Part shown: positions 3,031-55,295 of the stretch, in pieces | Position numbering within the stretch: position 1 is the stretch's first letter | Layout of the letters: each line of letters opens with the position of its first letter | NCBI GenBank assembly: GCA_963920765.1 | Contig: OY987248.1 | Coordinates: 17,828,539-17,892,538, forward strand | Direction of reading: 5' to 3' | Source of the DNA: Ulota crispa | Lineage: Eukaryota > Streptophyta > Bryopsida > Orthotrichales > Orthotrichaceae | Length of the DNA: 64,000 nucleotides | Program-made: the position numbers and the translations under genes | The notes under the pieces: generated by a model | What the model was told of the DNA's origin: nothing | Seen by the model: the letters and a program-made list of their open reading frames with translations, nothing else | Database searches by the model: none

Positions 3031-3272
3031 TTAACCCTTAAAGGACTAAGCTATTATAATATATATTATGTATGTTGTTGTATAATTGGCATTTGTTACC
3101 AACAAAAAGTTTTTATTTGGGATCTTGACTACCTTACTAGAACATCATTAATCTATATTTTAACTTCTTTGCTGATCTCAAATGTATTGAAGGAGTGGAT
3201 GCACTCCAAATACAAGAAAAATACCCTGTATTGTACTTGTCGCAAAGGGCTACTTTGTCCTTTAGGGGTTAA
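3031..3272 (+). mobile_element. TTAA-flanked MITE, short form (242 bp)
   Basis: TTAA CCCTTAAAGGAC ... GTCCTTTAGGGG TTAA. The interior (GGCATTTGTTACCAACAA and an ATGCACTCCAAATACAAGAA segment) is shared with 8831-9055, so the two are one short subfamily. Confidence 0.75.
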
Positions 3273-4420
3273 GGAAGAAAACTCAATACCACTTATATAT
3301 GTGTGTTAATGAGACAAGTATACCTTGCCCGCACTTTGTGCTAACCCATATGCTTCTTATCTCTCTTTTTGCTTCTTCTCTTACCCTACTTGTTCCTCTC
3401 TCTCCCTCAAAATTTCTTGTGATTCTCCCTCCCTTGCCTTGATTTTTTCTCTCCCTCCTTCCCCTCTCTGATAGAGAATTTCAAATTTCTTGTAACAAAC
3501 AAACACTTGATGCTTTATAGTATAGATATATGATAGTTGTAGATTTGTAGTTAGAAGATATGATTTACTAACACTAGTGCAAATTTGCCTATGACTCCTC
3601 CCGTGGAATTGCAAAGAAGAATATTTGGTAAATTAAACAAAAATGTTTTGAAGGTGAGAATACATACTTGACAAAGGCAAAGGGCTTGTAGGTTCTAGAT
3701 GATGGAATATGAAGGATTATTTGAAGCAACTGCAAAAACCTCTTTGTATATTGTGAAGCATTGCATTTTCTTTGGTTTTGCCAAATCTTTGCTATTCATA
3801 GTCCATTGAGTAATTAATAGAGGGACCAACCCACATTGGTCTAAATCTATTAGAATTGTTGCCAACTAGTAACATTTTGCCAAAAAAAAGGAGCTTTGAT
3901 ATGAAGAGAATCAATAACACATTAATCAATAAATAAGCGAAGATGCTTCTTCTCATGTAACCAACAAAAGTATTTATTTGGCCTTGTTAGGGAAGTGAAC
4001 AAGAGTTCAAGTGCATCTTATTTTGTATCATTTAAAAATAACAAGAGTTAATCCTGAATATTCAATATAATGGTTGACGGTAATCCAAATCAACCCTAAA
4101 TCCTCATGTCGAGGGTATGTATATTTTAGGGAAGAAATCATGTGGATTTTTTTAGTAGAGTTTTGTTTTTCAGTGAAGGTTCAAAATTAGAGAAACATGA
4201 AAAACTTCTCTATTATTTTTCCATACTCAAACAATGTTTTAGTAATTTTCAAAAATGCAAATATATCCTTGTGGAGGCATCTACGTTAAAGTCAAACACT
4301 AAGCCGCACACGCGCTCAAGAAAATGCCTTCACGTCCAATTCTGCAATCACTTTGTTACTCAAAAGCAATAAACAAGAGTTGTGAAAATGAATATACAAA
4401 TATAAAAATATGCATATATA
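3273..4420. other. No feature recognised
   Basis: AT-rich, with a CT-rich patch (about 3,400-3,470). No TIR pair, gene or RNA seen. Confidence 0.4.
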
Positions 4421-4841
4421 TTAACCCCTAAAGGACTGATTGTCTATTTGGGGGACGAATGAAATTTTGGGCATGTACTTATGGCTAAACTACTTTGTGG
4501 GATTTTTTGAAACTTTTATGGAAAATGGGAAATTCAAAAATTTGTGTGGGCATCTAATTTTTACTTAATTTTAACATTTTTTGAAGAAGTAAGAAAATAA
4601 TTTCTGAAAATTTGGGGAGGTTGGGCTGCCCAGATTACCCAACCTCCCCAAATTTTCAGAAATTATTTTTTTGCTTCTTCAAAAAATGTCAAAATTAAGA
4701 AAAAAATTAGATGCCCACACAAATTTTTGAATTTTCCATCTTCCATAAAAGTTTCCAAAAACCCACAAAGTAGTTTAGCCATAGGTACATGCCCAAAATT
4801 CCATTTGTCCCCAAATAAACAATCAGTCCTTTAGGGGTTAA
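4421..4841. mobile_element. TTAA-flanked fold-back element (421-bp near-perfect palindrome)
   Basis: The two ~205-base arms are inverted copies of each other along their whole length, meeting at about 4,630 (AACCTCCCCAAATTTTC pairs with GAAAATTTGGGGAGGTT). Both arms carry the left-end module of the larger TTAA family (AAAGGACTGATTGTC...GGGCATGTAC). It would transcribe into a long hairpin. Confidence 0.85.
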
Positions 4842-5342
4842 GGTATTAGCTTCGTGCTAAGGTACTCATGTGATGTGAATTGAGGGGAGATATCTTGGTG
4901 CTCTTTTGTATCATCTATGGGTGGTTGCAAGGTAGTTGTATACTTTTGGTTGGCCACAATACAATTGCACCATAGTACTATGGTGGAACCTTCAGGAGTG
5001 TTTTTGTAATTTTGAAAATTCCAGGAGTATTTATCAGAATGCGGCAAAATATAGGAGTAAATTTTCAAAATTTCCCTTGGAAATAAGCATACTTACCGTA
5101 AGGAGGTTTGTATATATCGCCAGTGCAATGTGTATGGAGCCAATCTAAAAATTAGAAAACATATCCAAATTGTGAAATGCTGATTGCAGAGGAATTCAGG
5201 GCTGGTATGAATACTCAGGGGTGGGCGGCTCCCAAGTACCTGGGTACATGCTCCCCATTGGTAGGGAACAACAAACCCATCTCCTCCGTTGCTGGAGTGA
5301 ATATGCTGCCAATATACTACATCAATACACCAGATTCGCTAC

Positions 5343-5709
5343 TTAACCCCTAAACTTCGAGGAGGATGAAAAACGTCCTCCTGCTCTGAAAAAAGATTTT
5401 GTGATTCAGAAAAAAGTCGTTTTTCATTTGATTTTTTTCAGAAGTGATCATAAACATATGATTCATCATGGAAGACAAAAAAATTACTTCTTGAGATGCA
5501 TTCATTTTTTTTGTAACCCAAATTATGATAAGATTCAAAAACATGGTGTTAGCTCTCAAGGTGTCCATTTTGCAATTTTCATGAGGGCATCATGCGCTGT
5601 TGACTTTCCCAACTTTTTGAAGCAATACTACTGGTGCCCATGTGCAAAACACTCTAGACTGCTACAAGCAGGGCAAGCCACAGTGATCCATCCATCCTTT
5701 AAGGGTTAA
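5343..5709 (+). mobile_element. TTAA-flanked MITE, subfamily C (367 bp)
   Basis: Begins TTAA CCCCTAAACTTCG and ends CATCCTTTAAGGG TTAA. The interior (GTGATCATAAACATATG, AACATGGTGTTAG, TTTTCATGAGG) is shared with 54,961-55,295. Confidence 0.65.
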
Positions 5710-5724
5710 AGTAAAGCAAGCAGC

Positions 5725-6642
5725 TTAACCCCTAAAGGTCCAAGCAAAGTTTTCACCAAAAACTCTCCAAAATTGCCATTTCTAGAGCATCAACCAAATT
5801 TGAAAACAAAAACATTTTTATGCATATGCGACTATAGGATCTTGTAGAAGAATAGTTTTAGAAAATGTGGAAAAAATTTCAGAGTTTTCCATCGCGTGGA
5901 TTGGAAGTTAGAATGGTTTGAATATTCAAAAACATCTTGTGAAAAATTGGGCAGCTGCCCTTCAAAAGGTGAAATTCTTGAGGAAAAAGGCCATGTGGGT
6001 GGTGCTTTTCTAAATTCCTTATTCCACCTAAGTAAGGTATGTGTCAAAAAAGTTTCAAATCATTTGGAATTGTATAACGTATGGAAAAAAATTAGTAAGT
6101 AAAAAGAAGTAAAGAAAGATCAAAACACAAAATTGTTAAGAATTGAATTATGGAAATGAAAATTGCCAATCCCAATGATTTTAATGTTGTAATAAACAAT
6201 CTACATCCTTTGGTTTTGCTTTTTTTCCAAAATAATGAAAATTGAGTAAAATAAAGGACTTCACAGTTTATTTTAGAGTAGTGAATCCATGACTGCCCGC
6301 AAACTAAAAATTCTCATAACTTTCATCTTGTTGATCAAAATGGAACGATTCAAAGCTTCCTACATTCACATAAATCTCCACAACCAATTTTAATTTTTTT
6401 TTTTGAAAAATAGGATTTTTAAAAATTTGCCCAGGTTGCCAAACAAACGTAAAAAGCAACATATTAGGCCATAACTTTTTACTCATATCTCCAGATGTCA
6501 TGAAGTTTAGTGCATATGAAAGTTAAACCGTGTCCCCACATTCCATTAAAACTTCAACCTAAAATATGAAAAGCTCCAACCACAAGTACCTGTCCAAATC
6601 GCTGTGTTTCTAAAAAGGAGGGTCTGATCCTTTAGGGGTTAA
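5725..6642 (-). mobile_element. TTAA-flanked MITE, full-length form, reverse orientation
   Basis: TTAA CCCCTAAAGGTCCAAGC ... CTGATCCTTTAGGGG TTAA. The left end carries the family's right-end module (CTATAGGATCTTG), so it lies in reverse orientation relative to 7308-8241. It includes the CCCAATGATTTTAATGTTGT segment that is the unoccupied counterpart of the insertion site at 42,089. Confidence 0.8.
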
Positions 6643-7307
6643 TTACAAGAGGTTCTCTGGATAATTTCTATGCCAGATTTTCACTGTGGTCTGAAGTAAT
6701 TGTGGAAGTGGTTATTTTGACATTGAAATAAATTGAGAGATTTTTTTTGGATGAAATTGCAAAATTCCTCTTGAGGAAACATTAAGTTTTTCAAACTTTG
6801 GATGAAACTTACTAATCATAGCTAATATAATTGGATGAAAATTTAATCATAAACAATTTTGTCCATTTTTCATTCACTTGCATGCATTTTAGGGTGCATG
6901 TTGTTTGGTTGATAAAATATCCAAAACAATCCCTAAAAGGCTCTTTTTCAATGACATTGGTTGGCTTGCTTTTCAAATTAACCTTTAAAAAAAATGAGGT
7001 CTTGTTGGGGAAACTCCCCAAATCATATAAAGAACGAAAGAAAATATAGAGGTTGCACATGCATGCATGAATTACAAAACAACCACATGAAGAATGGATT
7101 GGAAACTTAGGCAAGAACCAAATGATTCTCAAACCCCCTTATGTGCAAATTCTAAACAAACATGATTTTTTTTGATAACTAACATTGAGTTAAATTGAAG
7201 GCTTGTCCAAACTACCATAATTAGGTGGTAAACATTCACAACTAGGTGGTATTTTTGCATAGAGGAAGATTATTTCAATTTTAGACCCATAGGGTTGGAT
7301 ACATTGT
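6643..7307. other. No feature recognised
   Basis: AT-rich spacer between two TTAA elements. The overlapping short frames on both strands at 6,812-7,132 show no family resemblance. Confidence 0.4.
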
Positions 7308-8241
7308 TTAACCCGTAAATGATTGATGTTCCCGCAGGGGGCAAATGGGACTTTGGGCATGTACCTATGGCTAAACCAATTTTATGATGTTTTTTGAAAT
7401 TTTTGAGGAAGGTGGGGAATTCAAAGATGTATGAGCACATCTAATTTTTTCTTCATTTGTATGTTTATTGAAGAAGTTATGCTTGAATTTTTGAAATACA
7501 AGGGAGGGCGGGCAATCCGGGCAGCCCAAAAAACTTCTTTAAAGATTGCAATTTTTAAAAATAAAAATCTGAAAATGGTTCTTTAGATTTATGTGTATGT
7601 GGGAAGCTTTGGATCATTCAATTTTGATTAATGAGTGAGAGGTTTTAGTTTGCTGGTAGGTAGGAGACTCCCAAACCTCAATTCCTTTTTCCCCTTGTAA
7701 AATTTGGTGCTTTTATTTTTTTTTGGATTTTTTTCCAAGTTGTAGTAGATTAAGAGGCCTTAGTTTTCACAATTTGGATCAAAGTAATTTAGATTTCTAA
7801 ATTTTACATAAATCCTCCAATTTTGCCCGGTGTATATGCAAATTTCATGGCCTTATGACATTGTAATATTTTACAAAGTATGATTCACACCTTCAATTCA
7901 TTTGAAAATTCTCTCACACTTACCCAAACGGGTCTTCTACATGGAAAAAATAAACCTTAACTTTGCATAGCACAATTTTTTTGATATAGGAGAGGTCAAA
8001 GGCTTCTAAAAGTTTTGGGCAACAGGGATTTTTTTTTTGCACTTCAGTTGTCAATATCTTACTCCTCTACATCTAGAATGAGCTGATTTTTTTCCCACAA
8101 GTACCTCCCATAATCTAGGGCAAGATCCTACAGTTGAATTTACAAAAAAAAAAAGTTTTTCTACCTTTCTATTCATTGCTCTAGAATGGCAGTTTTCAAT
8201 GACTTTTGCACAAAAAATGGGCTTAGTCCTTTAGGGGTTAA
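7308..8241 (+). mobile_element. TTAA-flanked MITE, full-length form (934 bp)
   Basis: TTAA CCCGTAAATGATTG ... CTTAGTCCTTTAGGGG TTAA. The left module GGGCATGTACCTATGGCTAAA and the right module with AAGATCCTACAGTTG are those of 49,215-50,151 in the same order, which defines the + orientation used here. Confidence 0.8.
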
Positions 8242-8830: not shown

Positions 8831-9055
8831 TTAACCCTTAAACGTCCATAGGTATACATTGATGTATAATTGTCATTTGCTACCAACAAGAAATTTTAAT
8901 TTGGGATCTCAAGTAGCTCACTAGAATCCATTGATCTATTCTCCAACTTCTTTCTTGGTCTCAACTATGGTAGAGGTGTGGATCCATTCCAAATACAAGA
9001 AACATACCTCGTATTGTATTGGTCGGAGCGGCACACTCAGACGTTTAGGGGTTAA
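8831..9055 (+). mobile_element. TTAA-flanked MITE, short form (225 bp)
   Basis: TTAA CCCTTAAACGTCC ... ACGTTTAGGGG TTAA. The interior matches 3031-3272. Its right TTAA is the left TTAA of the next element. Confidence 0.75.
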
Positions 9056-9790
9056 TCCTTAAACGTTGCAGGAGTCATTTTGTGGCTTCTGGATGACTAA
9101 AAAGTGCTCTCATAGTGGAATAACACTGTTTTTCATCTAAGATTCCATTGGGATATGAATAGTGCAATTCTAGAGCATGTAGATAGATAGCTTTTGCATG
9201 CACAATGTTCACAAAAGGGTCCCACTTGCCAATTGAGTAGTAAAGATGCACCACCGTGTAATGTATTTTGAATCTTGAGGATCTTTTTACCAAAACTCAA
9301 TATGAGTTATTAAAATGATGTGTTTTTAGTTTGAGCATAACTAGAATTTGAAAGTTTACCAAATCTAGTTTCTCCTTGTACTTGAGATTTTGAAAAAATT
9401 TAAGTTTTGAAAATTTTATTATTGTCACAAGTTGAGTACCTATTACCACAAAATGGTTACTTTTTTTTAATTTTACCAACATGGGAAGAGAAATTCCATC
9501 ATGATGATCTTCATCATGATTCACATCCACAATAAATTTTTTTTGGCATAATTCAATACATTTTGTAACTTATATGAATTTCTTTAGCATTTGCTTCAAA
9601 AAATTACAATAATTTTAAGTTTTCACCAAAATTTGTGAACATTTTTTATATATGTAGTATGCACATACCTTCTTCTACTAAAAGTATAATATTGAATTTT
9701 GATGTTGATTGCATTGCCAAAATAACTTCTAGAAGATGATTGCAATTTCATGAAAAATCCATGGTTGTAGGCTTGTCCTTTAAAGGTTAA
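9052..9790 (+). mobile_element. TTAA-flanked MITE (739 bp), abutting the previous one
   Basis: TTAA TCCTTAAACGTTGC ... GCTTGTCCTTTAAAGG TTAA. It shares the TTAA at 9052-9055 with the upstream element. No coding content. Confidence 0.6.
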
Positions 9791-19890: not shown

Positions 19891-20131
19891 TTGTGATGAA
19901 GAAGAAGAGGTGATATGGAGTGAGAGGCAAAGGAAACCAGTCCATTCCAAGCGTCTCCTTCGTTACGAGAGCAAGAGCCTACTAGAGCCTTCTTCTTCTT
20001 CATCTCCTTCTCCTTCTACTACTTCTACTCGTACACCGCTTCCTCTTCCGCTGCGCTTCACTCGACTTCAGTTGCAACAGTACTACACTCACTCACCAAC
20101 CATCCTTCACCTGCTCTCTGTGATCTTTGTT

Positions 20132-20886
20132 GTAAGTGATATTTTTGTCCTTGCAACTTGCGTCTCTACGAACCCTTGTCATTGTGTCTCGAGCCATAGG
20201 GTTGCTGGCCGGCTTGCCTGCCTTCATCCTCATCCCTCTTCGTGTTTCGTAATCCCACCACTTTCTGATCTGCAAACCCTCCACTTGCTTAATTCTAGTA
20301 TCTTTCCTCGAGTTATAAGCTTCCCTATCTGTCCGTCTGTCTGTTAGCTTTGGAGTTTGGGCCCTTAGAAGGATCAATTAATATCCTACTCCGTTTGTGA
20401 TACGGGAAACCCGGAATTTGTGTGTACGTTAGTGGAGATAAAATCGTCATCGACAGTGGTTTGTCGAAAAAAGAGGTAACAGGCATACGGCTCCACGGGG
20501 AATCTTGAGTTTGCATTAGAAGTGTTACATGCATGGTCAGGAGTTGCCCAAGTTTCTACAAAGATCCTCTACAGTTCGTCGCCGAAGTAGTGTAGTTACA
20601 AGCCTATGAGTTCTCTGGTACTATAGTGGTGCGAGACTCTACCGCCATACCCCGTCGCAATTGTGTTTGAGCCCCTAGTCGTCGATAGTATTCCTACATG
20701 CAGGTCGCTGGAACGGAACAACCCCCGACACAATCGCCCATCTGTATTCCCGACGTGGATAACATGTTGCTGAGACTGCCACCCCGATAGCGCGTACACA
20801 ACACACCTCCGTCGACAAAACTCCGAAGTCCGAACTGCTGCTTGATCGATCGTTGTTGGCTGACGCTGATTCTTCTCAATCTCCAG
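20132..20886 (+). other. Possible 5'-UTR intron of the VQ gene
   Basis: A strong donor (TTGTT|GTAAGT) follows a pyrimidine-rich CTTCTTCTTC/CTCCTTCTCC leader at about 19,985-20,130. A candidate acceptor (TTCTCAATCTCCAG) ends 17 bases before the ATG at 20904. This would give a short spliced leader. Other AG sites (for example at 20703) are possible, and a plain unspliced leader cannot be excluded. Two very short upstream ATG frames (from about 19,895 and 19,915) would be in the leader if transcription starts upstream of them. Confidence 0.4.
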
Positions 20887-20903
20887 CACCTGCTGCTGCT
20901 ACG

Positions 20904-21869
20904 ATGGCACCGCACACCGAGAATCATCAGCACCTGCTGCCCAAACCGTTGGGGGTGGCGAAGAACCATAATGCGGCGGGAAAGCCGGCGCCGGGATCGG
21001 GATCCAGTCCGACGTATCAGCGGGGCCGGGACTTGCAGTCGACCATGCAACACGCGCCCACGATTCGAGTGATCCACATTTTCGCGCCGAAGGTGATCAA
21101 GACCGACGTGGCCAACTTCCGGTCGACGGTGCAGAAACTAACCGGCCGCGGGAAGACCAGGTCGCAACGCCGCGCTGCCGCCACCGCCACCGGGCAGGAT
21201 TGCGGACCAGTCGACGAGTTTGTCGCCATGAACGCTCACGAAGTGGTGTTGCCGCCGCCGCCGCACGGTGGCCCGGCCAACACGGGTAATCTTTATTGGG
21301 ACCCGACGACCGACAAGGAGGTGCTCACGTTGCAGCGCATGGTGGGCGATGCGTGCGGGATGACGACGGATCTGATGCGCTGCGACAGCGTCGACAGCGC
21401 AACATACAGCTTGGACAGCGGGAACACGTTCAGCGGCGACACCTCCAGCCCCGGCGTCACCACCACCAGCCCAGGCGGTACCATGGACGCCGCCAGCTTC
21501 AGCTTCTACCCGCAGCGCGAGATGCCCTACTCCCTCGGCGAGATTCCCGCTCCCTTCTTCGGCGCTGCCGCTTCTCACGCTGCCGCCGTCGACATGCTCT
21601 ACCCCACCGGGTCCTGCAGCAGCTTGCCCATAGCCACGTACGGTGGCGCTCCCGGTAGCAACAACTACCTCACGTCGCATTTGATGGACCACAACAGCTT
21701 GAGCTCGATGGGATTCGAAGCGGATGTACCGCTGCCAACTTTGTCGACCGACGCCGCGGCGAGCAATTCTTCTGCCGGCGGAAGCCTGTTTGATTTGATG
21801 CCCCGCCAACATTGTCGATTGAGCGTGCAACCTCCTTACCGAGGCGCCAGTTTCTTCGAGCCCATATAA
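20904..21869 (+). CDS. VQ-motif protein, probable WRKY-partner transcriptional regulator (321 aa)
   Basis: The VQ core FRSTVQKLTG lies at residues 72-81, preceded by a conserved-looking stretch RVIHIFAPKVIKTDVAN (about 55-71) and followed by basic residues RGKTRSQRR. Known VQ proteins are small plant nuclear cofactors that bind group I and IIc WRKY factors through this motif, and some (MKS1 type) are MAP-kinase substrates. The N-terminal PKPLGVAKNH segment loosely recalls the MKS1-type PRPxPLxVxK block, so an MKS1/VQ21-like place is possible but not shown. The rest is low-complexity Ser/Thr/Gly/Ala sequence with several SP/TP sites (SSPTY; TSSPG; TTSPGG), typical of a disordered regulator. 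The start is the ATG at 20904; the frame is open for some codons upstream but has no earlier ATG. The reading frame has no intron, as is common for VQ genes, and is much richer in G/C than its surroundings. No domain other than VQ is recognised. Confidence 0.9.
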   Translation: MAPHTENHQHLLPKPLGVAKNHNAAGKPAPGSGSSPTYQRGRDLQSTMQHAPTIRVIHIFAPKVIKTDVANFRSTVQKLTGRGKTRSQRRAAATATGQDCGPVDEFVAMNAHEVVLPPPPHGGPANTGNLYWDPTTDKEVLTLQRMVGDACGMTTDLMRCDSVDSATYSLDSGNTFSGDTSSPGVTTTSPGGTMDAASFSFYPQREMPYSLGEIPAPFFGAAASHAAAVDMLYPTGSCSSLPIATYGGAPGSNNYLTSHLMDHNSLSSMGFEADVPLPTLSTDAAASNSSAGGSLFDLMPRQHCRLSVQPPYRGASFFEPI

Positions 21870-36512: not shown

Positions 36513-36628
36513 TTGGATTTGGATTTTTTGGATTTTTTGGATTTTTTGGGTTTTTTGGGTTTTTTGGATTTTTTGAATTTTTTGGGTTTTTTGGATTCTT
36601 TGGATTTTTTGGATTTTTTGGATTTTTT
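36513..36628. repeat. (GGATTTTTT)n tandem array
   Basis: About a dozen 9-base units GGATTTTTT or GGGTTTTTT. The lysine-rich frame on the reverse strand (36,458-36,646) is only a translation of this repeat. Confidence 0.9.
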
Positions 36629-37186: not shown

Positions 37187-38113
37187 TTAACCCCTAAAGG
37201 ACCATTGTCCCTACAAGGGACAAATGGGATTTCGGGTAGGTACCTACAGCCTCAATTTTGTCCTAATTTTTTGAAACTTTTTTTGAAAATAGAAAAACAC
37301 ATTAGCTTCTGGAGAATATAAATTTTATTCCAATTGATGCCAAAGAGCAATAGTTATGTCCAAATAAGCACAAATTTGGGGACTAGGGGCAGCAAAAAAA
37401 ATTCTTATAAAAACTTGAAAAAAAAATTTAATTTTTTTTCTTATAGATTATATCTTTGTCTACATCTGAAGTTTTGATTCATTCCATTTGGACTAGTTAT
37501 GAGAAAGTTATGGACAATCTTATTTTTTGGGCAACTCAAGCATCTTCTTGAAAAAATAACTTATAAACTTCATTTTTGAATGCAAGTTTAACATTTTTTC
37601 AAATTTTTTTTGGAGAGGGTGAAGTTTGCTTTCTAGAACAATCTCACCATTGGGATTATTGCGTTTCAATTCCATTGCATGGTTATTAGCAATTTAAGTT
37701 TTTCGTCAATCTCATACCTTCTTCTACCTAATGTTTTTTTAAAGAATGAAAGTTAAGTATTTTTTGTTTTGTTTTTTTTTCCAAGATTACCAACTCAACT
37801 TCCCACCATGCAAAAATAGAATTCCAAACTCCATGGTGCAAAAAATTTAAGTTAAAAATGTTCAAAGGTAAAAAATCTAGTCAAGCAAGGTGCAAAAAAA
37901 GTTTTTTCTTACACTTTAAATGCATATATCTTCCAATTTGTGCTGTCAAAGTTCTTGAGTTTTGTATGACACATTCTTATAGTAGTCTAGCACAAGATCC
38001 TACGGTCAGATATGCAAAATGCCTGATTTTCAAACTTTTTTACTCTTTGCCATAGAGGTGGCAGTTTTGAGTGTCTTTTGACAAAATAAAGGCCATGGTC
38101 CTTTAGGGGTTAA
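37187..38113 (+). mobile_element. TTAA-flanked MITE, subfamily B (927 bp), with a tandem-repeat empty site
   Basis: TTAA CCCCTAAAGGACCATTG ... CATGGTCCTTTAGGGG TTAA. The left module reads GGGACAAATGGGATTTCGGG; the interior TTGTCTACATCTGAAG is shared with 40,518 and 43,541. Flanks read GTGTGACA and AGAGG, whereas the intact neighbouring unit reads GTGTGATATTAAAGAGG. Confidence 0.85.
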
Positions 38114-39325: not shown

Positions 39326-40451
39326 TTAACCCCTAAAGGACCAAGCCCTTTTTTGTGTGAAAATAGTTAAAAATTGTCACTTGAAAGGTAGAACAATTTT
39401 GTTTTGAAAATCCAACCATAGAATCCTGTCTTAGACTATAGGAGGTACTTGTGGGAAAAATATTAAGTCATTTCAGATGGTGAGGAGTGAGACATTAACA
39501 TTTGAAGTGAGGAAAAAAAGTTTTTCCCTTGTTGCTTGAAAATTTCAAAAACCTTTGACCACTCTTATAGCAAAAAAATTGCTCTACATAAATTTGAGGT
39601 TTATTTTATCCATGTAGAAGACCAAGTTAGGTATGTGTGGGGACAATGCTATTTGGTGAGAGTAAAATGGTGAGCCATGAGCAAAGATTCAAGATTATAT
39701 GAGCAAAAACGGATTCTTAATTCAAAATCAATTGAACAACTTTTTAAAAAGAAAGTTTTTCTAGAAATGATAGTTTAAAATGCACAATTGTAGGGCCTCT
39801 TTGTACATGGTTATAGGCAAAAGAAATATTTTGACAAAATATCCCCGCTCATGTGTGGGAGGATTTTCAAATGAATCATAGGTGTACAACATACTTCAAA
39901 AAATCTAGAAGGTCTTGAAATTTGCAAGTACACTAGGCAAAATTGGAGGATTTATGTAAAATTCCAATATTTGAATTACACCAATCTAAATGATGAAAGG
40001 CAAGGGCTCTTATAAGACCACTACAGTTTGGAAGATAAATAAATCAAAAAATAAATACACAAATTACTTAAAAAACAAAAGTTCCAAATTTTACAAGGGA
40101 CACAAGGAATGGAGGATTGGAAGTCCTCCAAGATGGACTCCTTCAACTCCACTCCCCTTTGCCCAAGTGTCCACACCTTGTGCCCAAAAGGACTGACCCT
40201 CTTTGGAGTGAACACCCACCTACAAAGGAGAGGCCCTACTCAAACTGCCTCTCCACTCCTATTTTTGATAAATTCTTGCATAACTTCTTTGTCAAATGGA
40301 AAATGAAGAAAATTTTGGATGGCCATGTAGGTCCTTGAATTCTCCACCTTCAATAAAAGTTTCCAAAAATCATGCAAACTAGTTTAGCAATAGGTACATG
40401 CCCAAAACCCCACTTGGCCTCCCAAGGGGCCACTTGAGCTTTAGGGGTTAA
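39326..40451 (-). mobile_element. TTAA-flanked MITE, full-length form, reverse, hosting a MITE
   Basis: TTAA CCCCTAAAGGACCAAGC ... TTGAGCTTTAGGGG TTAA. The module order is inverted relative to 7308-8241. Interrupted at 39,642-39,850. Confidence 0.8.
39633..39859. mobile_element. GACAATGCTATTTGGTGAG-TIR MITE, 9-bp TSD ATGTGTGGG
   Basis: ATGTGTGGG occurs at 39,633-39,641 and 39,851-39,859. The body resembles the ends of 273-714 (GCTATTTGGTGAG, ATTTTGACAAAATATCC). The relative at 47,684-48,641 has no insert here (AAATGTGGGAGAATTTTCAAA). Confidence 0.75.
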
Positions 40452-40517: not shown

Positions 40518-41423
40518 TTAACCCCTAAAGGACCATTGTCCGTTTGGGAGACAAATGGGATTTTGGGCAAGTACCTACAACCTCAATTATTGTCGTGATA
40601 TTTTGATTTTTTTTTTTTGAAGATAGAAAAATACATTAGCTTTTGGAGTATATAATTTGTATTCCAATCTATGCGCGGGATCAAAAGTTATGCCCAAACA
40701 AGCACAAATTTGGGGAGTCCAAGTAGTAATTTTTTTTACAAAAATTTGAATTTTTTTCTCATGGATTGTATTTTTGTCTACATCTGAAGCTTTGATTCTT
40801 TCTATTTAGACTAGTTACAAGAAGGTTATGGACAATCTTGTTTTTTGGGCAATTTAAGCATCTTCTTGAAAAAATAACTTATAAACTTCATATTTGAATG
40901 TAGTTTTAACAATTTTTTGAAATAAATTTTTGGAAAGGGTGGAGTCTGCTTACTAGAAGAATCTCATCTTTGAGATTATTGTGTTTCAATTCCATTACAA
41001 GGTTGTTAACCATTTAAGTTTTTGTTCAATCCCATACCTTTGTCTACCTTTTTTTTATAAGAATGAAAGTTTTTTTTTTTTTTTTTTTTTTTTTTCCAAA
41101 GATTCTCAACTCAATTTTCCACCATAAAGATTTAAACCTCCAAACTATGTGTGCAAAAAAATGAAGTTAAAAATATTCAAAGTCAAATATTCTAAGCATG
41201 CAAGGTGCAAAAAAGTTTGTTTTTTATACGTAAATATCTTACAATCTATGTGGTCAAATTTTTTGGATTTTTTCTACACATTCTTATACTAGTTTGGTAC
41301 AAGAATCTATGGTTAGATATGCAAAAGACCAGTTTTCAAACTTTTTTACTCTTTACCATAAAAATGGCAGTTTTGAGTATCTTAATTTTGACAAACTAAA
41401 GTGCGCGGTCCTTTAGGGGTTAA
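40518..41423 (+). mobile_element. TTAA-flanked MITE, subfamily B (906 bp)
   Basis: TTAA CCCCTAAAGGACCATTG ... GCGGTCCTTTAGGGG TTAA. Collinear with 37,187-38,113. A T-tract of about 27 bases is at 41,069-41,095. Confidence 0.85.
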
Positions 41424-41618: not shown

Positions 41619-42700
41619 TTAACCTCTAAAGGATCAAGCCCTTCTTTTTGCCCAAATCACACAAAACTGCCACTTCTAGGGGATGAGTAAGAAGGTAGAT
41701 TTTTGTTTTTTTATTTTTTGGAAATTCAACTGTAGGATCTTGCCTTAGACTAGAAGAGGTATTTGTGGGAAAAAAATCATGTCATTTTAGATGGAGAGGA
41801 GGGAGATATTTACATTTGAAGAGAGAAAAAAGGTTTTTTTTAATTACTGCTTGTAAATTTCAAAAGCCTTTGACCACATTTACATGAAAAAATTGCTCTA
41901 CCCAAAGTTGTGCTTTTAATTTACCATGTAGGAGATCAAGTTAGGTATATGCCGGAGAATTTCCAAAACAATTTGAAATATACAACACATGGGAAAAAAT
42001 AGTAAGTATAAAGAAACAAAGAATGAGTCAAAACACTGAATTTTTTAGAATTTAATTACTGAAATGAAAATGCAAATCCCAATGGTTATACCCGTTCAAA
42101 ACTTTGTTAAAGTCAATATAAACTACTTGATGTTTTCTTGCTTTTAACGCAAAAATTTGCATTAGAAGCAAAAAAACATCATGTAGTTTATGTTAACTTT
42201 AACAAAGTTTTCTTCTAGTGTTATAATGTTGTAATAAACATTCTACTTTCTTAGGTTTAATTATTTTTTTCAAAATATTGAAAATTGAGTAGAACAAAGG
42301 ACTTCAAAGCTTATGTGAGAGTAGAGTATCCATAAGTGCTTGCAAACAAAAACTCCTCAGAATTTTCATCTCATTAATTCAAATTGAATGTTTCAAAGCA
42401 TCCCATGTATCAAAAAATCTAAAGAACCAATTCCAAATTTTCATTTTTTATAATTGTAATTTTCAAAGAAGTTTTTTGGGTTGCCCGAATTGCACCTCCT
42501 CCCCTATTTTTGAACAATTCTTGCATAACTTCTTTGTCAAATGTCTAAATGAAGAAAAGATTAGATCTATGACCAAGTAGATCTCTAAATTCCCCACCTT
42601 CAATAAAAGTTTCAAAAAACCACACAAAATAGCTTATTAAAAGGTACATGCCTAAAATTCCATTTGTCCCCCAAAGGGAAAATGGTCCTTTAGGGGTTAA
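41619..42700 (-). mobile_element. TTAA-flanked MITE, full-length form, reverse, hosting a CACTA hairpin
   Basis: TTAA CCTCTAAAGGATCAAGC ... AATGGTCCTTTAGGGG TTAA. Collinear with 39,326 and 47,684. Interrupted at 42,089-42,220. Confidence 0.8.
42086..42223. mobile_element. CACTA-type mini-hairpin, TSD TTA
   Basis: The 132-bp body has arms AAAACTTTGTTAAAG and CTTTAACAAAGTTTT and ends CTTCTAGTG. TTA is on both sides. The uninterrupted relative at about 6,170 reads CCCAATGATTTTAATGTTG across this point. Confidence 0.7.
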
Positions 42701-43540: not shown

Positions 43541-43840
43541 TTAATCCCTAAAGGACCATTGTCTCTATGAGGGACAAATGGGATTTTGGGCAAGTACCTA
43601 TGGCCTCAATTTTTGTCTTAGTTTTTTGAAACTTTTTTTGAAGATAGGAAAACACATTAGCTTTTGGAGAACATAATTTTTATTCCAATTGGTGCCAAGG
43701 AGCAAAAGTTATGCCCATATAAGCACAAATTTGGGGAGTCCGGGCATCAATTTTTTTATAATGAAAACTTGAAATATTTTTTAAATAATTTTTCTCATAG
43801 ATTATATCTTTGTCTACATCTGAAGTTTGAGTTATTTCAT

Positions 43841-45138
43841 TTCTTGGAAGGTTACTCTCCGATTTTTGGTAAACTACGTGAGATAAAAAATAGGGTCAGT
43901 TTTATTCATTGGAGATAAGTTTATATATTTTTAGATGTACCATAGCATTGAAAAAATATGTCTTGCTTCATTATATGTAAAATAGGGTGGTGTATAATCT
44001 TCCATTTTAGAATACTGTAGAAAAAAAATAGGGTGGAAATTATAGGATTATCCTAAACGAGTTTAGTAGGATGAGTGTAGGGTTTAGAGTTCATGAGCAA
44101 TATGGATGAAAAATGGTTTTTTTGTCCAAGTCTTGGGTTGTAACAATTTAGGGTCTACCAACAAGCTGTAGGGTAATTGAAGAAGGGTCAGGCGTGCTGG
44201 CAAAGGCTGGCATTGTTGTGGAATCTTGAGAGTAGGGTTTGTGCTAGCAATCACATTGGATTCTTTACACATTGGATTCTTTACACATTGGCTTCTTTAC
44301 ACGATGTTATGCTAAGCTTACCATTCCTCTTGTTGGCACTTAGGATTCTCAAATTTAAGATTGCTTTCTTAATGTTTGCAATTTTTTTCTCTCCGGATTA
44401 TCTGAGCAATTTGAAAGTGGTGGCGAGGGTGTTGTACAATTGAAGCTTCTCATCCTCCTTCCAAAATTTTCCTCATAGCACTGTACTTGCAAGCGCGGGA
44501 GTGTGAGCTTAGTGGGGTTTGCGTTCAAGATTGGATTTGTTTTCTTTGTTGGCGCGTTTAGGTTTGGATTTCTTATCTTTTTCTGCCAACAACAGTGGTG
44601 GACGTTGGCAATATTGCACTGTTCTTTCTGCAATTCTTGACAGCAAGAGCTCGGCTTCACGCTCAAACTTACCTGCTGTCCTTGATCTACCCGGTTTTCT
44701 TCCTTTCCTCTTTTCATCTCCATTTTAGGGTTTAGTGCTTCAAAGCTTGTCATTTGCTGTTTTGTGAGTATGCAAGTGGTTGAAGGTAATCTAAATTTTT
44801 AAGAATGGGTTAGGGTTTAGGAAGGCTGCTTTGTAAGTGTGGTTTGAGAGACTTGTTATGTGCTAAATTCTTATGCTATTTACTTGCGGGCCAAAGTCTT
44901 CTATAAACCCATTGTATACACATAATTGTTTCTTATGATACTTTTGTGTTTGTAAAAAATTAGGTCAAACAATCCTTTAAAATAAGCATAGGGTACCCTA
45001 AAATATACTAAAGTAGTTTCTTATCTAAAGAAAGGGAGGAAAAAATTACCTTGAAGAATCTAAATACCCCCCATTTAATTATCCCATTATTGCAAGTGGT
45101 GTCCAGTTGTAAAGGGGTGTGACCCCCCCCCCCCCAAG
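43841..45138 (-). other. Foreign insertion carrying a possible host-gene fragment
   Basis: About 1.3 kb absent from the two relatives. On the reverse strand a 71-codon frame (44,724-44,512, stop at 44,509-44,511) without an ATG reads like protein: charged residues, FEREAELLLSRIAE at the middle, then Lys-rich. It overlaps an alternative ATG frame (44,753-44,355). A 13-C run (about 45,123-45,136) marks one edge. I do not recognise the protein. Confidence 0.4.
44252..44301. repeat. Three 16-bp units CACATTGGATTCTTTA
   Basis: Units start at 44,252, 44,268 and 44,284; the third has GGCTTC. Confidence 0.85.
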
Positions 45139-45764
45139 TTCCGTTTGGACTAGTTATGAGAAAGTTATGAACAATCTTGTTTTTTGAGCAAACTAAGCAT
45201 CTTTTTGAAAAAATAACTTATAAACTTCATTTTTGAATGCAAATTTAACATTTTTTCAACAAACATTGTTGGAAAGGGTGAAGTTTGCTTTCTAGAAAAT
45301 CTCACAATTGGGATTATTGCATTTCAATTCCATTGCATGGTTATTAGCAATTTAAGATTTTGTTCAATCTCATAGCTTCTTCTACCTAATGTTTTTTTTA
45401 AGAATGAAAATTGAGTATTTTTTATTTCAAATTTTTCCCAAGATTCCCAACTCAACCTCTGACCACAAAAAAACAAAGTTCCAAACTCTGTGGTGCAAAA
45501 ATATTAAGTTAAAAAATTTCAAATTCAAATAATTTAATCATGCAAGGTGCAAAAAAAACTTGATTTTTCCACTTTAAATGCTTCCAATCTGTGTGGTCAA
45601 AGTTCTTGAATTTTGTATATCACATTCTTATACTAGTATAGTACAAGATCCTATGGTTAAATATGCAAATAGATAAATTTTCAAACTTTTGTACTCTTTG
45701 CCATAGAAATGACAATTTTAAGTGCCTTTTGGCAAAATAAAGGCCATGGTCCTTTATGGGTTAA

Positions 45765-47531: not shown

Positions 47532-47532
<1 letters not shown>

Positions 47533-47683: not shown

Positions 47684-48641
47684 TTAACCCCTAAAGGATC
47701 AAGCCCTTTTTTTTGTGAAAATCATTGAAAACTGTCACTCCTGGGGGAATGAGTAGAAAGGTAGGAAAAAAAGTTTTTTTTGAAAATTGAATCATAGGAT
47801 CTTACCCTAGACTATGGGAGGTACTTGTGGGAAAATTTTCAACTCATTCTAGAAGTAGAGGAGTGAGATATTGACATCTGAAGTGAAAAAAAAAGTCTAT
47901 TTCCCTACTGCCCAAAAATTTCAATAGCCTTTGATGGCTCATAAACCAAAAAAATTGCTCTACGCAAAGTTGAGGTTTATTTTTTCCATATAGAAGACAA
48001 AGTCAGGTAAATGTGGGAGAATTTTCAAATGAATTGGAGGTGTGAATCATACTTTATAAAATCATGTAATGCCGCAAGGCCATGAAATTTGCATATACAC
48101 TAGGCAAAATTGGAGAATTTATGCAAAATTCAGAAATATGAATTACTTAGATCTAAAGGGTGAAAACCAAGGAATCTTAATCTACTACAACTCGCAAAAA
48201 AAAAGTTAAAAAAAAATACACAAAGAACTCAAAAAAGTAAAGCAACAAATATTACAAGGAACAAAAAGAATGGAGGTTTGGGAGTCCCATACCTACTTGC
48301 AAACTGAAAATTCTCATAACTTTCATCTCATCAATCAAAATTGAATGATTCCAAAATTCCCACATTTGTATAAATCTAAAGAACCAATTTTAGATTTTTA
48401 TTTAAAAAAAATGCAATTTTGAATTATTTTTTTGGGCTGCCCGCCCTCTCCCTTTTTTAGAAATTCATGCATAACTTCTTTAATAAATGTTGGAATGAAG
48501 AAAAATTAAATGCCCGCATAGATCTTTGAATTCCCCACCTTCAATAAAAGTTTCAAAAAATCACAAAAAATAGATTAGCTATAGGTACATGCCCAAAATC
48601 CATTTGTCCCCCAAGGGGACAATTGATCTTTTAGGAGCTAA
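47684..48641 (-). mobile_element. TTAA-flanked MITE, full-length form, reverse (958 bp)
   Basis: TTAA CCCCTAAAGGATCAAGC ... TTGATCTTTTAGGAG CTAA. Uninterrupted relative of 39,326 and 41,619. Confidence 0.8.
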
Positions 48642-49214: not shown

Positions 49215-50151
49215 TTAACCCCTAAAGGACTATTGTCCCTTTGGGGGACAAGAGGGAGTTTGGGCATGTACCTTTGAATAAGCTACTTTGTGTGATTTTT
49301 TGAAACTTTTATTGAAGGTGTGGAATTCAAAAATCTACGCGAGCATCTAATTTTTTCCTCATTCCGACAATTATTGAAGAAGTTATGCATGAAAATCTGA
49401 AAAGCAAGGGAGGACTGCACGCCTAGGCAGCCTAAAAACTTCTTTTAAATTTTTTTTTTTAAAAATTAAAATTTGAAATTGGTTCTTTAGATTTTTTTAT
49501 AGGTGAGCAACTTTGAATCATTCAATTTCAATCAATGACATGAAAGTTATGAGGAGTTTTTGTTTGCGGGCAATTATGGAATCTCTACTCTAAAATAAAC
49601 TTTGAAGTCCTTTGTTTTACTCAATTTTTATTATTTTGGAAAAAAAAAAAAAAACCAAAGGATGTAGATTGTTTATCACAACATTATGACCGTTGGGATT
49701 TGCATTTTTCATTTTGATAATTAAATTCTTAACAATTTAGTGATTTGACTCATTCTCTACTTTTTACTTATTGATTTTTCCTATGTGTTGTGTAGTTCCA
49801 ATTGATTTGAAAATTCTCCCACACATAGCTAACTTGATCTCTTACATGGGGAAAATAAAGCACAAAGTTGTGTAGAGCAATTATTTTCATGTAAGAATGG
49901 TCAAAGGCTTTTGAAATTTTGTGGTAGCATGAAAAAAAACTTTTCTTTTCACTTTAGATGTAAATATCTCACTCATGTCCATCCGGAATGACCTGATTTT
50001 TTTACCACAAATATCTAATCCAATCTAGAGCAAGATCCTATGGTTGGATTTCCCAAATTTTCAAAAAAAATTACCTTCTTACTAACCCTCCCAAAAATGA
50101 CAGTTTTGATTGATTTTCACTGAAAAAATGGCTCAGTCCTTTAGGGGTTAA
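49215..50151 (+). mobile_element. TTAA-flanked MITE, full-length form (937 bp)
   Basis: TTAA CCCCTAAAGGACTATTG ... CTCAGTCCTTTAGGGG TTAA. Uninterrupted; left module GGGGGACAAGAGGGAGTTTG, right module GCAAGATCCTATGGTTGG. Confidence 0.85.
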
Positions 50152-50530
50152 TTACCAGAGCCTGCAAATGCTGACTTTGTGGGGTCCAAGGCCCAACCCA
50201 TGCACATTGTACCAGTACAGCATAGAATCCTCGACACAGAGACCGACTCCCCAGTTTCTTTTTTTTTGCCCCTAAGGAGATGGCTTTAGAATTCAGCAAC
50301 ACCAGCGTAGGCCACATGATTGGGAGGAATGAACCAGCTTGCTCCTACTCAGAATCCCCCCAGGGAGGTTTAGCATCAATTATTTAGAACAAAGAATCTT
50401 TTGAAAGTGCGCAAAAATAAAAGTTCGCGCCTGGGCGGCTTCTGCTCTTGCCAAGGCCACACATAGGTCAAAAGCAGCCGGTTTGTAGCATATGAAATAG
50501 TAAAATACATTGTTGAAGTATATTGTTTTA
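50152..50530. other. No feature recognised
   Basis: Somewhat GC-richer spacer without a gene or TIR pair. Confidence 0.35.
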
Positions 50531-51453
50531 TTAACCCTACAGGACTGTTGTTCCCTCGGGTGACAAATGGGAATTTGGGTATGTATCGTTAAACTGCTTT
50601 GTGCGATTTTTTTATTTTTTTTCCAAAGTGGGGATTTCAAAAATTTATATCGGCATCTAATTTTTTCTTCATTTTAACATATATTGAAGAAGTTATGCAA
50701 GAATTTATCAAAACTAGAGGAGTAGTGGCGGTTTGGGCAAGGCCGCTCCTTTGTACGTAGGAGTTGATTTCAGAAAGGGTCAGCCCTTATGGGCATAAGG
50801 TGTGGACACTTGGGCAAAGGGGAGTGGAGAGGAAGGAGCCCATCTTGGGAAACTCCTAACCCTTCGTTCCTTTTGCCCCTTGTGAAATTTGGTACTCTAG
50901 TTTTTTAGCGGTTTGTGTACTTGTTTTTCATTTATTTATTTTTCAAGTTGTAAGTGGGCTAAGAGTTCTTCCTTTTCACCATTTAGATTGGTGTAATTCA
51001 AATTTTTGAATTGTTCATGAATCCTCCAATTTTGCTTAGCGTACTTGCAAATTTTAGGACCTTCAAGCATTCGAAGATTTTTTGGAGTATGTTGTACACT
51101 TCCAATTCATTTGAAAATTCTCATACACATGCCCAACTTGGTATTCTAGATGGAGAAATTAAACCTCAACTTTATGTAGAGTAGTTTTTTTGCTATAGGA
51201 GCAGTCAAGACTTCTAAATTTTTTGGGCAAGAAGAAAAAAACTTTTTTCTTTACTTTAGATGTCAATATCTCATTCCTCCCCATCTAAAATGAGCTGTTT
51301 TTTGTCCCACAAGTACCTCTTATAATCTAGGGCAAGATCCTATGGTTGGATTTTCATAAATAACATTGTTTTCTACCTCTCTACTCATTGCCCTAAAAGT
51401 AGTAGTTTTCAGTAACTTTTGCATAAAAAAAGGCTCACTCCTTTACGGGTTAG
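50531..51453 (+). mobile_element. TTAA-flanked MITE, full-length form (923 bp)
   Basis: TTAA CCCTACAGGACTGTTG ... CTCACTCCTTTACGGG TTAG. The last four bases are also the first four of the next element. Confidence 0.8.
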
Positions 51454-53053
51454 CCCCTAAAGGATCACTTGTCCCTATGGGGGACAAATGAGATTTTGGA
51501 TAGGGTCATGCTACTACAATTTATGACCAAATTCTAGATTTTTTTTCCAAAGGTAGAGTTTTGCAAGAGTTACATGGGAGAACAATTTTTATTAAATTTT
51601 GATTTAAAATTCAAAAGTTATAAGGATAAACATGTGAATTTTAGTTGGAAGGGCAGCTTGGGCATGCCATTTTTTGTTGACTTCTCCCAAGGGGAACCAA
51701 TGAAGTGATGACCCTTCATTGGAATTTATCCACAGCAATAGTGTACTAAATAAATACATTGTTGTGTTTGATAAATACATTAACCTTTGAATTGCAATAG
51801 CTATTAGAGGCTTAATTTTTTTTCCAAATTTCTTTCTTGATATTGTTGACCCCTCAAGGACCACTTGTCCCTACAGAAGACAAATAGGATTTTGGGCATG
51901 TACTTACAGCTAAACTACTTTGTGTAATTTTTTGAAACTTTTATGGAAGATGGAGAAATCAAAGATCTATGTGGACATCTAATTTTTACCTCATTCCAAC
52001 ATTTATTGAAGAAGTTAAAAATGAATTTATGAGAATTTTAGTTCGATGGACAGCCCAAAAAATTCTTTAAATTTTTTTAAAAATAAAACTAAAAATTGAG
52101 GTTAGTTCTTTAGACTTACGTATATGTGGGAAGCTTTGAATCATCCAATTCTAATTGATGAGATGAAAGTTATGAGAAGTTTTGGTTGAGGTGTAGGCGT
52201 AGTTTTGAGATTTTCCACACCTATCCGCAAACTAAAACTTCTCATAACTTTCATCTCATCAATTAGAATTGGATGATTCAAAGCTTTCCATATATACATA
52301 ATTCTAAAGAACTAACCTCAAATTTTTATTTTTTAAAAATGCCATTTTTAAAGAATTTTTCGGGCTGCCCGCTGAACCAAAATTCTTATAGATTCATTTT
52401 TAACTTCTTCAATAAATGTTGGAATGAGGTAAAACTTAGATGTTCACACAAATCTTTAAATTCCCCATCTTCCATAAAAGTTTCAAAAAAATTACACAAA
52501 GTAGTTTAGCCATAAGTACATGCCCAAAATCCCATTTGTCCCCCGTAGGGACAAGCGGTCCTTTAGGGGTTAATGAAGCTAAACTCTTCTAATCCACTAT
52601 TTGGATTTTTATTTCCTTTAGTATATCTTTAGAAAACTTGGTTGGCAAAAATCCTTAGTGTAGTGTGAATTTCAAGCATATGTTTGCAGTGCAGGGCCAT
52701 GGAGGGTGTGTTCCATGTCTTGGTTGATCACAAAAATTTGGAGAGATATGCCTAATATGATTTAGAGCATTTTAGACAAATCTCTTCAACATATATAGTG
52801 CAAAAAAAATTCACCACACATTGTTAAAGGCACCTGAAAATTTTGGGCATGGGTAAATTTTTTTATGTACTACCTGTAAATGATCATATCTCTCAATCCA
52901 TACGGTCAAATTTCACAAAGTTTTCACGATATGTTCTTGAATGAGTCTACTACCCTAAGATTTGATTTGATCTTGTTTGAAAAGATTATTTTTAGGATCA
53001 TGTCATTTCTAGTTTTTTTTGAGAAAAAATGTGCTTGGTCATTTAGGGGTTAA
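51450..53053 (+). mobile_element. TTAA-flanked MITE, subfamily D, hosting a TTAA fold-back
   Basis: TTAG CCCCTAAAGGATCACTTG ... CTTGGTCATTTAGGGG TTAA. The interior differs from other subfamilies. Interrupted by 51,846-52,573; without it about 880 bp. Confidence 0.7.
51846..52573. mobile_element. TTAA-flanked fold-back element, 728-bp palindrome, nested
   Basis: TTGA CCCCTCAAGGACCACTTG ... AGCGGTCCTTTAGGGG TTAA. Both arms (~350 bp each) are the left module and its continuation through CTAATTTTTACCTCATTCC and GATGAGATGAAAGTTATGAG, mirrored around about 52,205. Confidence 0.85.
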
Positions 53054-53833: not shown

Positions 53834-54301
53834 ACCATGCACTTCAAACTTGCTCCCCATCTTGTTTTTGTCTGCCCATCTGCTTGCTCATCAACCACTT
53901 CTATTTCACAATATTTGTGCACTTCATGTTCTCTCTTTCTTTTCTTTTTTTAAATTTTTTTGTTATGAGTAAAGTGAATGAGTCAAATTTCACTAAAAAT
54001 CACCTTGGACTCAACTCTTAACCCCTAAAAGCCCATTGTCCCTACGAAGGATAAATTGGATTTGGGCAGCTCAATACAAAAGGACTTTTTGTTTTTTTTC
54101 TTTGAAAATTTTATAAAACATGCGCTTATGGAGTAGCTTTAAGGTCCAAACAAATTTTATAACTTTTGATAACATGGTTCAAAAGTTATTACATGATTTG
54201 TAGTTTTGTTAAAACTCCGGGAAACCTGGGCTTTTCAAAAAACTTCTTTAAAAATTACATTATTATTATTATTATTCTGAAATTGGTTTTTTAGACTTAC
54301 T

Positions 54302-54304
<3 letters not shown>

Positions 54305-54348
<44 letters not shown>
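54305..54348. repeat. (TA)n microsatellite, about 22 units
   Basis: An uninterrupted AT/TA run in the left arm of the 54,018-54,964 palindrome. Confidence 0.95.
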
Positions 54349-54354
<6 letters not shown>

Positions 54355-54546
54355 GAGAAGCTTTGAATCATTTGATTTCAATTAATGAGATGAAAGTTAT
54401 GAGAAGTTTTAGTTTGCCGGTAGGTATGGTTTTGAGAGACTCTATACCTACCCACAAACTAAGGCTTCTCATAACTTTCATTTCATTAATCAGAATTGAA
54501 TGATTCAAAGCTTCCCACATATACATAAGTTTAAAGAATCCATTTT

Positions 54547-54719
54547 ATAAAAAATAAAAAAATAAAAAAATAAAAAAATAAAAAAATAAAAAAATAAAAA
54601 AATAAAAAAATAAAAAAATAAAAAAATAAAAAAATAAAAAAATAAAAAAATAAAAAAATAAAAAAATAAAAAATAAAAAATAAAAAATAAAAAATAAAAA
54701 AAATAAAAAAATAAAAAAA
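54547..54719. repeat. (TAAAAAA)n array, about 25 units
   Basis: Seven-base units, with some six-base units at about 54,667-54,700, in the right arm of the palindrome. The Phe-rich reverse-strand frame across it is a by-product. Confidence 0.95.
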
Positions 54720-54960
54720 TAATGTAATTTTTAAAAAGCTTTTTGAACTGCCCATGGTGCTTGAAGTTAAAAAAAAACTACATATCATGCAATAACTTTT
54801 GAACCATGTAGTAAAAAGTTGTGAAGGTTATTGGACCTTAAAGTTACTCCTTGGGCACATCATGTGTGAAAATTTCAAAGAAAAAAGATGAAAAATTCAT
54901 TTGCAATGAGTTGCCCAAAATTTCTATGTTGTCAAAAAACGCTCTTTGGGCCTTTGGAGG

Positions 54961-55295
54961 TTAAAGGAGCAGATAGGAAATGTCATCTCGTTATTGAAAA
55001 AACAATACGTAGGATGGAGAAAAGTCAATTTATATTTGATTGTTTTTTGAAGTGATCATGAAGACATGGTCTATCAAGAAAGGCAAAATAAGTGTATACA
55101 TTTTTTTTTAGGTAGCCCAAATTGTGAGAAGACTGAGAGACATGGTGTTAGGTCCCATGTTGCTTGTCTTGAAATTTTCGTGAGGTCAGCGTGCAACTTT
55201 TGGATATAGTAGGATTATGGACGGACACTTGACACACCACTGTAGAGCACTATAGAAGGACAATTATAATGAAAAGCCCAACATTTAGGGGTTAA
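54961..55295 (+). mobile_element. TTAA-family MITE, subfamily C, abutting the previous element
   Basis: Ends CAACATTTAGGGG TTAA. The interior (AAGTGATCATGAAGACATGG; GACATGGTGTTAG; TTTTCGTGAGGTCAGC) matches 5,343-5,709. The left terminus after the shared TTAA is not canonical and may be truncated. Confidence 0.55.

Follow-up and report, generated by a model that had tools for sequence, protein, structure and literature searches.

piggyBac-type ends, TTAA target duplications and probable partner transposase genes of an abundant MITE family in a land-plant, probably moss, genome

The 64-kb stretch of DNA analysed here (the window) is densely populated by a family of miniature inverted-repeat transposable elements (MITEs) whose copies are bounded by the short inverted sequences CCCCTAAAGGAC...GTCCTTTAGGGG, starting with 5'-CC and finishing with GG-3', and are flanked in most cases by the tetranucleotide TTAA. 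Allowing up to two mismatches, the 12-mer CCCCTAAAGGAC has 37 matches in the window, 13 of them exact, against 3.5 expected, a number never equalled in 100 shuffles (0/100); the shared termini noticed in the preliminary description of this DNA are borne out by these counts. At 13 per 64 kb, exact ends are about five times as dense here as in the genome on average. With the 12-mer extended by TTAA and as many as four mismatches tolerated overall, 45 TTAACCCCTAAAGGAC-like ends are found. Exact TTAA is present at 35 of them and a one-base variant at six more (TTAG three times, CTAA twice and TTGA once), a share that is biased upward because TTAA was itself part of the search pattern. The four others carry neither (TAAT at 31569, TTGT at 32104 and 40178, ATTA at 50530). 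The earlier wording, that TTAA or a one-base variant flanks every case, holds for 41 of the 45 ends but was slightly too strong. We think that the two TTGT-flanked matches are not real ends; at 50530, the terminal inverted repeat (TIR) is short of one base. Two of the ends, at 5709 and 5725, lie only 15 bp apart (5694-5740).

Pairing of these ends yields 18 copies, the leftover ends being solo or doubtful, which is close to the figure of about 21 copies first proposed. Eight copies measure 906-958 bp (here and below, a sign gives the strand where one was assigned). They are located at 5725-6642 (918 bp), 7308-8241 (+, 934 bp), 40518-41423 (+, 906 bp, exact termini) and 54018-54964 (+, 947 bp), all with TTAA at both ends, 37187-38113 (+, 927 bp, exact TTAACCCCTAAAGGAC at both ends and a 19-bp palindrome at nt 19-37 from the 5' TTAA), 47684-48641 (-, 958 bp, flanked by TTAA and TTAG), 49215-50151 (+, 937 bp, exact termini and the 19-bp palindrome TTGTCCCTTTGGGGGACAA at nt 19-37) and 50530-51453 (+, 924 bp), the last adjoining the next element and having its 4-bp target (51450-51453) in common with it. 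Five copies are short (225-728 bp). Three have TTAA at both ends: 3031-3272 (242 bp), its relative at 8831-9055 (225 bp) and 4421-4841 (421 bp). The fourth, at 31569-31815 (247 bp), has TAAT on the left and TTAA on the right, and the fifth, at 51846-52573 (728 bp), is nested in a larger copy. Both 4421-4841 and 51846-52573 have the same 5' subterminal sequence at their two ends, so they are foldback-like forms and not simple deletions. Among the five longer copies, 39326-40451 (-, 1126 bp) and 41619-42700 (-, 1082 bp) have TTAA at both ends, and at least two are interrupted by inserts: 43541-45764 (+), a copy of the 927-bp kind split by about 1.3 kb of other, unrelated DNA (about 43843-45138), and 51450-53053 (+), which hosts the nested 51846-52573. 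The remaining one, at 32068-34213 (+, flanked by TTAG and TTAA), is decayed or interrupted, with its first ~110 and last ~600 bp aligning to other copies, and its pairing is uncertain.

The copies are non-coding and internally diverse. In the window together with loci fetched from the assembly, the 12-mer alone located 29 distinct end pairs, some of which may be mispaired. The commonest copy size is about 0.9 kb (in 14 of the 29 pairs the 12-mers lie 890-960 bp apart), and no pair contains an ATG-initiated frame of more than 99 codons, from which we conclude that the copies do not encode a protein. Clustering with a 70% coverage limit gathered 11 pairs loosely, at 57-92% identity, and three at 81-88%, leaving 15 alone; the multiple internal subfamilies of the preliminary description are therefore real, as one loose cluster, a second cluster and many single pairs.

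The family extends far beyond the window. Across the assembly (274.8 Mb in 157 contigs), exact CCCCTAAAGGAC occurs 11,594 times (5,774 + 5,820), compared with 11 occurrences (6 + 5) of the reversed control, and TTAACCCCTAAAGGAC occurs 9,807 times (4,902 + 4,905), with none for its control. TTAA accordingly precedes 84.6% of the exact ends (9,807/11,594), and this assembly-wide compilation of flanks, a check that had been proposed at the outset, agrees with what was seen locally.

TTAA is palindromic and so common at these ends that it could belong to the inverted repeat itself, the true target duplication lying further out, as in a hAT or Mutator element. The flanks speak against this. TTAA is present on both sides in 21 of the 29 end pairs, and outside it these 21 pairs show identities of 1 bp in four cases (4.5 expected), 2 bp in two (0.8) and 4 bp in one (0.06), with no outer repeats of 3 or 5-9 bp. 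There is accordingly no consistent duplication outside TTAA. Related empty sites, in addition, hold one 4-mer at the junction and no gap. At locus L002, when the flanks of the element were joined with a single TTAA and searched against the genome, 38 of the 40 scored matches (out of 169 candidates) cross the junction, with a genomic length between -4 and +4 bases relative to the query (a single one at -4, as read from the table), and the query is split at TTAA only at the element's own site. A relative of the L002 site in L032 has the four bases CCAA at the junction, and for the nested insertion 51846-52573 the relative lacking the insert, in L039, shows TCAA once, whereas the inserted copy is flanked by TTGA and TTAA. 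We consider a TTAA internal to the TIR extremely unlikely; TTAA as the 4-bp target duplication of the family is supported, and the different outer duplication that had been named as a possible contrary outcome did not emerge consistently from the 21 pairs.

The same sites bear on the idea that segmental or tandem duplication of the region, and not transposition, multiplied the copies. The roughly fivefold excess of exact ends in the window would fit such a process; however, flanking sequences differ among copies, one copy is inserted into another and empty sites exist. The joined flanks of 41619-42700 and 49215-50151 match the genome only at their own sites, which is uninformative about empty sites and does not fit a duplicated region. 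The probability that we assign to duplication is negligible.

Transposition of these copies calls for a transposase, and the same genome contains at least 120 matches to the piggyBac transposase profile PF13843 (DDE_Tnp_1_7), the best with an E-value of 1.3e-73, a lower-bound count because scoring covered 116 of the 528 first-look candidates; none of the 14 control genomes matched this profile. Ten of the listed matches are free of internal stops, and most of the listed copies, which carry stops, are probably dead. In a Pfam scan of seven proteins, the six transposase frames matched PF13843 alone. The one frame compared with the PDB, from L037, had as sole matches the piggyBac transposase 6x67 (4.1e-20) and the piggyBat transposase 9c0f (5.8e-17), the latter from a bat; its phmmer score against Trichoplusia ni piggyBac, 75 bits, reflects low similarity. 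Around PF13843 matches we fetched 20 loci of 9.9 kb each. The equivalents of D268, D346 and D447, as well as an adjacent fourth D, are all retained in 12 of these 20 copies, the positions having been set by motif and by alignments to 6x67 for the first two and to piggyBat for the third, with L034 as query. Catalytic-domain identity of the different lineages to one reference copy is 33-47%. Where a catalytic D has been lost, the change is D to N in 11 of 13 cases (in L025, L030, L031, L032, L035, L036, L037 and L039), an excess that fits C-to-T changes on the other strand and is perhaps a trace of cytosine methylation. Within about 110 amino acids downstream of the catalytic domain, 13 of the 20 copies have a CxxCx7CxxC motif, two of them with a stop inside, for 0.017 expected per copy.

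Several of these genes lie in elements with delimited ends. L024 (contig C3, 1863-6890) and L033 (C10, 1897-6923) form one alignment of 90.5% identity over 5029 bp, and their homology starts and stops at TTAACCC-type termini, the left end of L033 being TTCACCC; L040 (C2, 2695-7924) and L043 (C1, 2701-8008) are related through two alignments whose limits likewise fall at TTAACCC-type termini. In L027, 19-bp ends identical at 19 of 19 positions surround the transposase, compared with 6-7 mismatches in the three control orientations. The TIR pairs of L029 and L031 also beat the control orientations, as do pairs 7.7 and 7.5 kb apart in L039 and L041. Counting TIR pairs was nonetheless rejected as a proof of boundaries, because control orientations match or surpass the pairs in some loci; the boundaries rest on the two homology pairs and on the 19/19 match of L027, and the elements firmly bounded in this way span 5.0-5.7 kb.

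From the 20 ends of ten elements (L024, L025, L027, L028, L029, L031, L032, L033, L040 and L043) we derived the end motif TTAACCC[CT]T[TCAG][AG]N[TCG]G[CA]C, to which exceptions are rare; TTAACCCCTAAAGGAC, the end of the MITEs, is permitted at every one of its columns. A looser motif derived from the transposase-bearing elements, TTAACCCYTNANNGMC, occurs 34,877 times in the genome (17,447 + 17,430), compared with 55 control matches (32 + 23), an excess of about 630-fold, and 25,070 of its matches are something other than the exact MITE end. One of the loci, L024, also holds a non-coding element of 653 bp (8902-9554) that is bounded on each side by TTAACCCCTAAATGCC; it has this 16-nt end in common with the transposase-bearing element of L027 and possibly represents a MITE family of its own. 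L026, where a transposase is flanked by a complete MITE (1417-2342) and a partial one (6847-7437), was considered as a parent of the MITEs because its end at 7437 bears MITE 3' sequence; it was rejected, since with these two MITEs on its flanks the transposase cannot be credited with those ends.

A number of observations weigh against a piggyBac assignment of the MITEs. Firm boundaries exist for just five of the 20 transposase loci, in L025, L028 and L032 the pairs do no better than controls, and eight of the 20 loci have no TIR pair that could be placed. The agreement between MITE and transposase-element ends is circular for the first seven columns, because the ten elements were picked for TTAACCC-like ends, so that the independent test is provided by columns 8-16, where only a minority of ends have the MITE base at columns 10, 13 and 15 (4, 5 and 5 of 20). 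Past the first 16 nt, three of the 20 element ends slightly exceed all 30 shuffles in their resemblance to the MITEs and 17 do not; the two have hardly any inner sequence in common. No transposase bounded by exact CCCCTAAAGGAC was found in the 20 loci read. At the empty sites, the junctions inspected at single-base level in two relatives read CCAA and TCAA instead of TTAA. Finally, the Pfam profile PF13842 gave no match, so that the Cys-rich domain of these transposases may be of a diverged or different kind; the controls gave none either, and the result is not evidence of absence.

The lack of an exact-end transposase in the 20 loci and the scarcity of common inner sequence would both be expected if the MITEs belonged to another superfamily using TTAA, for instance a Sola3-like one, with an autonomous exact-CCCCTAAAGGAC member separate from the piggyBac copies. 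We judge this unlikely, since every position of the MITE end accords with the piggyBac end motif found here, even if with the minority base at three columns, and the whole motif stands so far above its control. Kolobok elements also duplicate TTAA, and PMC9587614 reports them from chlorophytes and rhodophytes among others, but the same text gives their termini as 5'-RR...YY-3', whereas the copies described here are of the form 5'-CC...GG-3', and the transposases encoded between ends of this motif belong to PF13843; that the family consists of non-autonomous Kolobok elements is very unlikely. A short TIR starting with CCC, characteristic of the piggyBac superfamily, is what the MITEs possess, and their membership of this superfamily is well supported. 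Taken as a whole, the copies are with high probability MITE-like, non-autonomous piggyBac-superfamily elements, moved in trans, of the nuclear genome of a land plant, probably a moss.

The preliminary view that a piggyBac-type transposase mobilised these copies is thus supported, by PF13843 elements with the same kind of terminus and by the TTAA duplication. The search for longer copies encoding DDE_Tnp_1_7 that it called for succeeded in part: it uncovered PF13843 elements with the same end motif but, in the 20 loci, none with exact CCCCTAAAGGAC, and for that reason we infer the specific partner of the family from the shared end motif. We likewise infer that the family was moved by one of the transposases found here or by some other relative, unread or extinct, whose end is exactly CCCCTAAAGGAC, and that it has been active in the past or is so at present. 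An autonomous copy with the same ends and a different transposase, which had been set out as the contrary case, was not found, no other transposase family having been searched genome-wide. In the mechanism that we propose, a piggyBac-type DDD transposase, made in trans, would cut copies out at TTAA and rejoin them at TTAA elsewhere, and the copies would have multiplied in this manner over a long time. A transposase dimer would recognise the 12-13 bp end and perhaps, through its Cys-rich domain, a palindrome. The ends and the target duplication can be read directly in the DNA; excision would pass through TTAA hairpins and be followed by joining at a new TTAA, if the chemistry of T. ni piggyBac (PMC7351741) can be carried over to this system.

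The candidate palindrome is located just inside the termini. In several MITE 5' ends there is one whose centre lies 28-29 nt in from the outer T of the TTAA, such as the TTGTCCCTTTGGGGGACAA mentioned above; in another MITE subfamily this position is taken by a different palindrome, CAAGTGGCTATTCAACAGCCACTTG; and L040 and L043 have a third, TGAGGACACATCGTGTCCTCA in L040, with its centre at 29. A symmetry score of at least 6 out of 9 pairs at centres 28-29 is reached by 16 of 52 MITE ends and 4 of 20 transposase-element ends, at one end per element. Centre 29 tops all centres in the transposase elements. In the MITEs, the mean is higher at centres 32-33, in part because of A/T-rich stretches, and 6/9 is reached about as often at 32-33 and 37, so the signal at 28-29 is not unique there. 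By shuffling, 10 of the 52 MITE ends and 3 of the 20 transposase-element ends are significant at p<=0.02, many of the MITE ends being related and not independent. In T. ni piggyBac, a palindromic-like 19-bp repeat present in both ends is bound by the Cys-rich domain, as described in PMC7351741, whereas the palindrome scored here occurs at one end per element only. Judged from symmetry and position, it is a candidate binding site of the Cys-rich domain, a suggestion and nothing firmer.

The T. ni piggyBac element is about 2.5 kb long and its TIRs begin with CCC. The elements of this genome resemble it (6x67/6x68; PMC7351741) in the TTAA target and its duplication, the short TIRs, the DDD domain of the PF13843 family, the C-terminal Cys-rich domain and perhaps the palindromic internal repeat near the end; they differ in having a land-plant host, in the 5.0-5.7 kb of their bounded transposase elements and in the abundance of non-coding copies of about 0.9 kb. 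The likeness to piggyBat, which has an animal host, is that of a homologous transposase, and the comparison here is by transposase alone. Animals also have non-autonomous piggyBac families (MER75/MER85-type elements, insect MITEs) that are short, carry piggyBac ends and are moved in trans. The present family differs from all of these in the kingdom of its host, and its genome combines several end types with tens of thousands of ends. With the plant MITE superfamilies treated in PMC12550479, it has in common its non-coding nature, its TIRs and its high copy number. That 2025 survey covered 207 plant genomes, including four bryophytes, and five superfamilies; in its main text the terms 'piggybac' and 'TTAA' occur 0 times, and its MITE Tracker limit of 800 bp is below the commonest size found here, EDTA-TIR-Learner having been used too.

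It is fair to say, as the preliminary description did, that reports of piggyBac-type elements from land plants are rare, but such reports exist: PMC10004981 includes PiggyBac when it names the MITE superfamilies of angiosperms, and Table 2 of PMC4438587 lists piggyBac in all groups examined. Furthermore, a C-fern table contains 1,230 PiggyBac annotations (PMC6890710), and occasional occurrences are recorded, for example in red algae (PMC12732532). Our literature search, which considered titles and the start of abstracts among the best-ranked results and covered sources other than subscription papers, preprints and Repbase, returned no bryophyte piggyBac population; one moss-genome paper with a matching word was set aside, the word being 'piggybacking' and not the transposon. 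Within the literature covered, what is new is the scale and diversity of piggyBac in a probable moss, and a situation in which piggyBac is dominant has not been described there for any land plant.

Besides the MITEs, the window contains a gene at 20853-21869 (+) with a VQ motif (Pfam), which we take to be a plant family, and the 4-kb block that holds it (20001-24000) has a G+C content of 0.50, the other 4-kb blocks ranging from 0.31 to 0.42. Tandem arrays are present at 2016-2211 (14-bp unit), 36467-36652 (9 bp) and 54537-54720 (8 bp). Elsewhere in the assembly, contig C157 is plastid and carries rbcL and psaA/psaB. In a comparison with the PDB, its PsaB reaches its top scores, 1710-1712 bits, with 6l35/7xqp, 8htu and 7ksq/7kux, followed by 9lut at 1673 and by further entries at 1630 or less; the five leading entries are photosystem I structures of the moss Physcomitrium patens and the lower group starts with flowering plants, so that PsaB and the VQ-motif gene point to a land-plant host, probably a moss. 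The Rubisco large subunit, compared with the PDB for the same purpose, was less clear as a clade marker. The large nuclear contigs C1-C10 contain short plastid psaA/psaB- and rbcL-like fragments; and C97:118173-118940 has a second long RuBisCO_large match, over model positions 54-299, that is stop-free in a 964-codon frame.

As for the history of these elements, they may represent an old and diverse piggyBac population of mosses or of this lineage, with many transposase lineages and a long-lived non-coding lineage of about 0.9 kb, forming a dominant class of cut-and-paste DNA transposons and possibly still active, a reading that we put forward tentatively and hold to be somewhat short of an even chance. 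piggyBac serves as a standard transposon tool for delivering genes, and descriptions of where it occurs natively usually name animals, fungi and protists. The 34,877 end-motif matches and at least 120 transposase-domain matches found in this genome show that the superfamily can flourish in plants, where TTAA-specific transposases native to the host are on offer for study. They also suggest that annotation restricted to five superfamilies and an 800-bp limit could overlook families of this kind.

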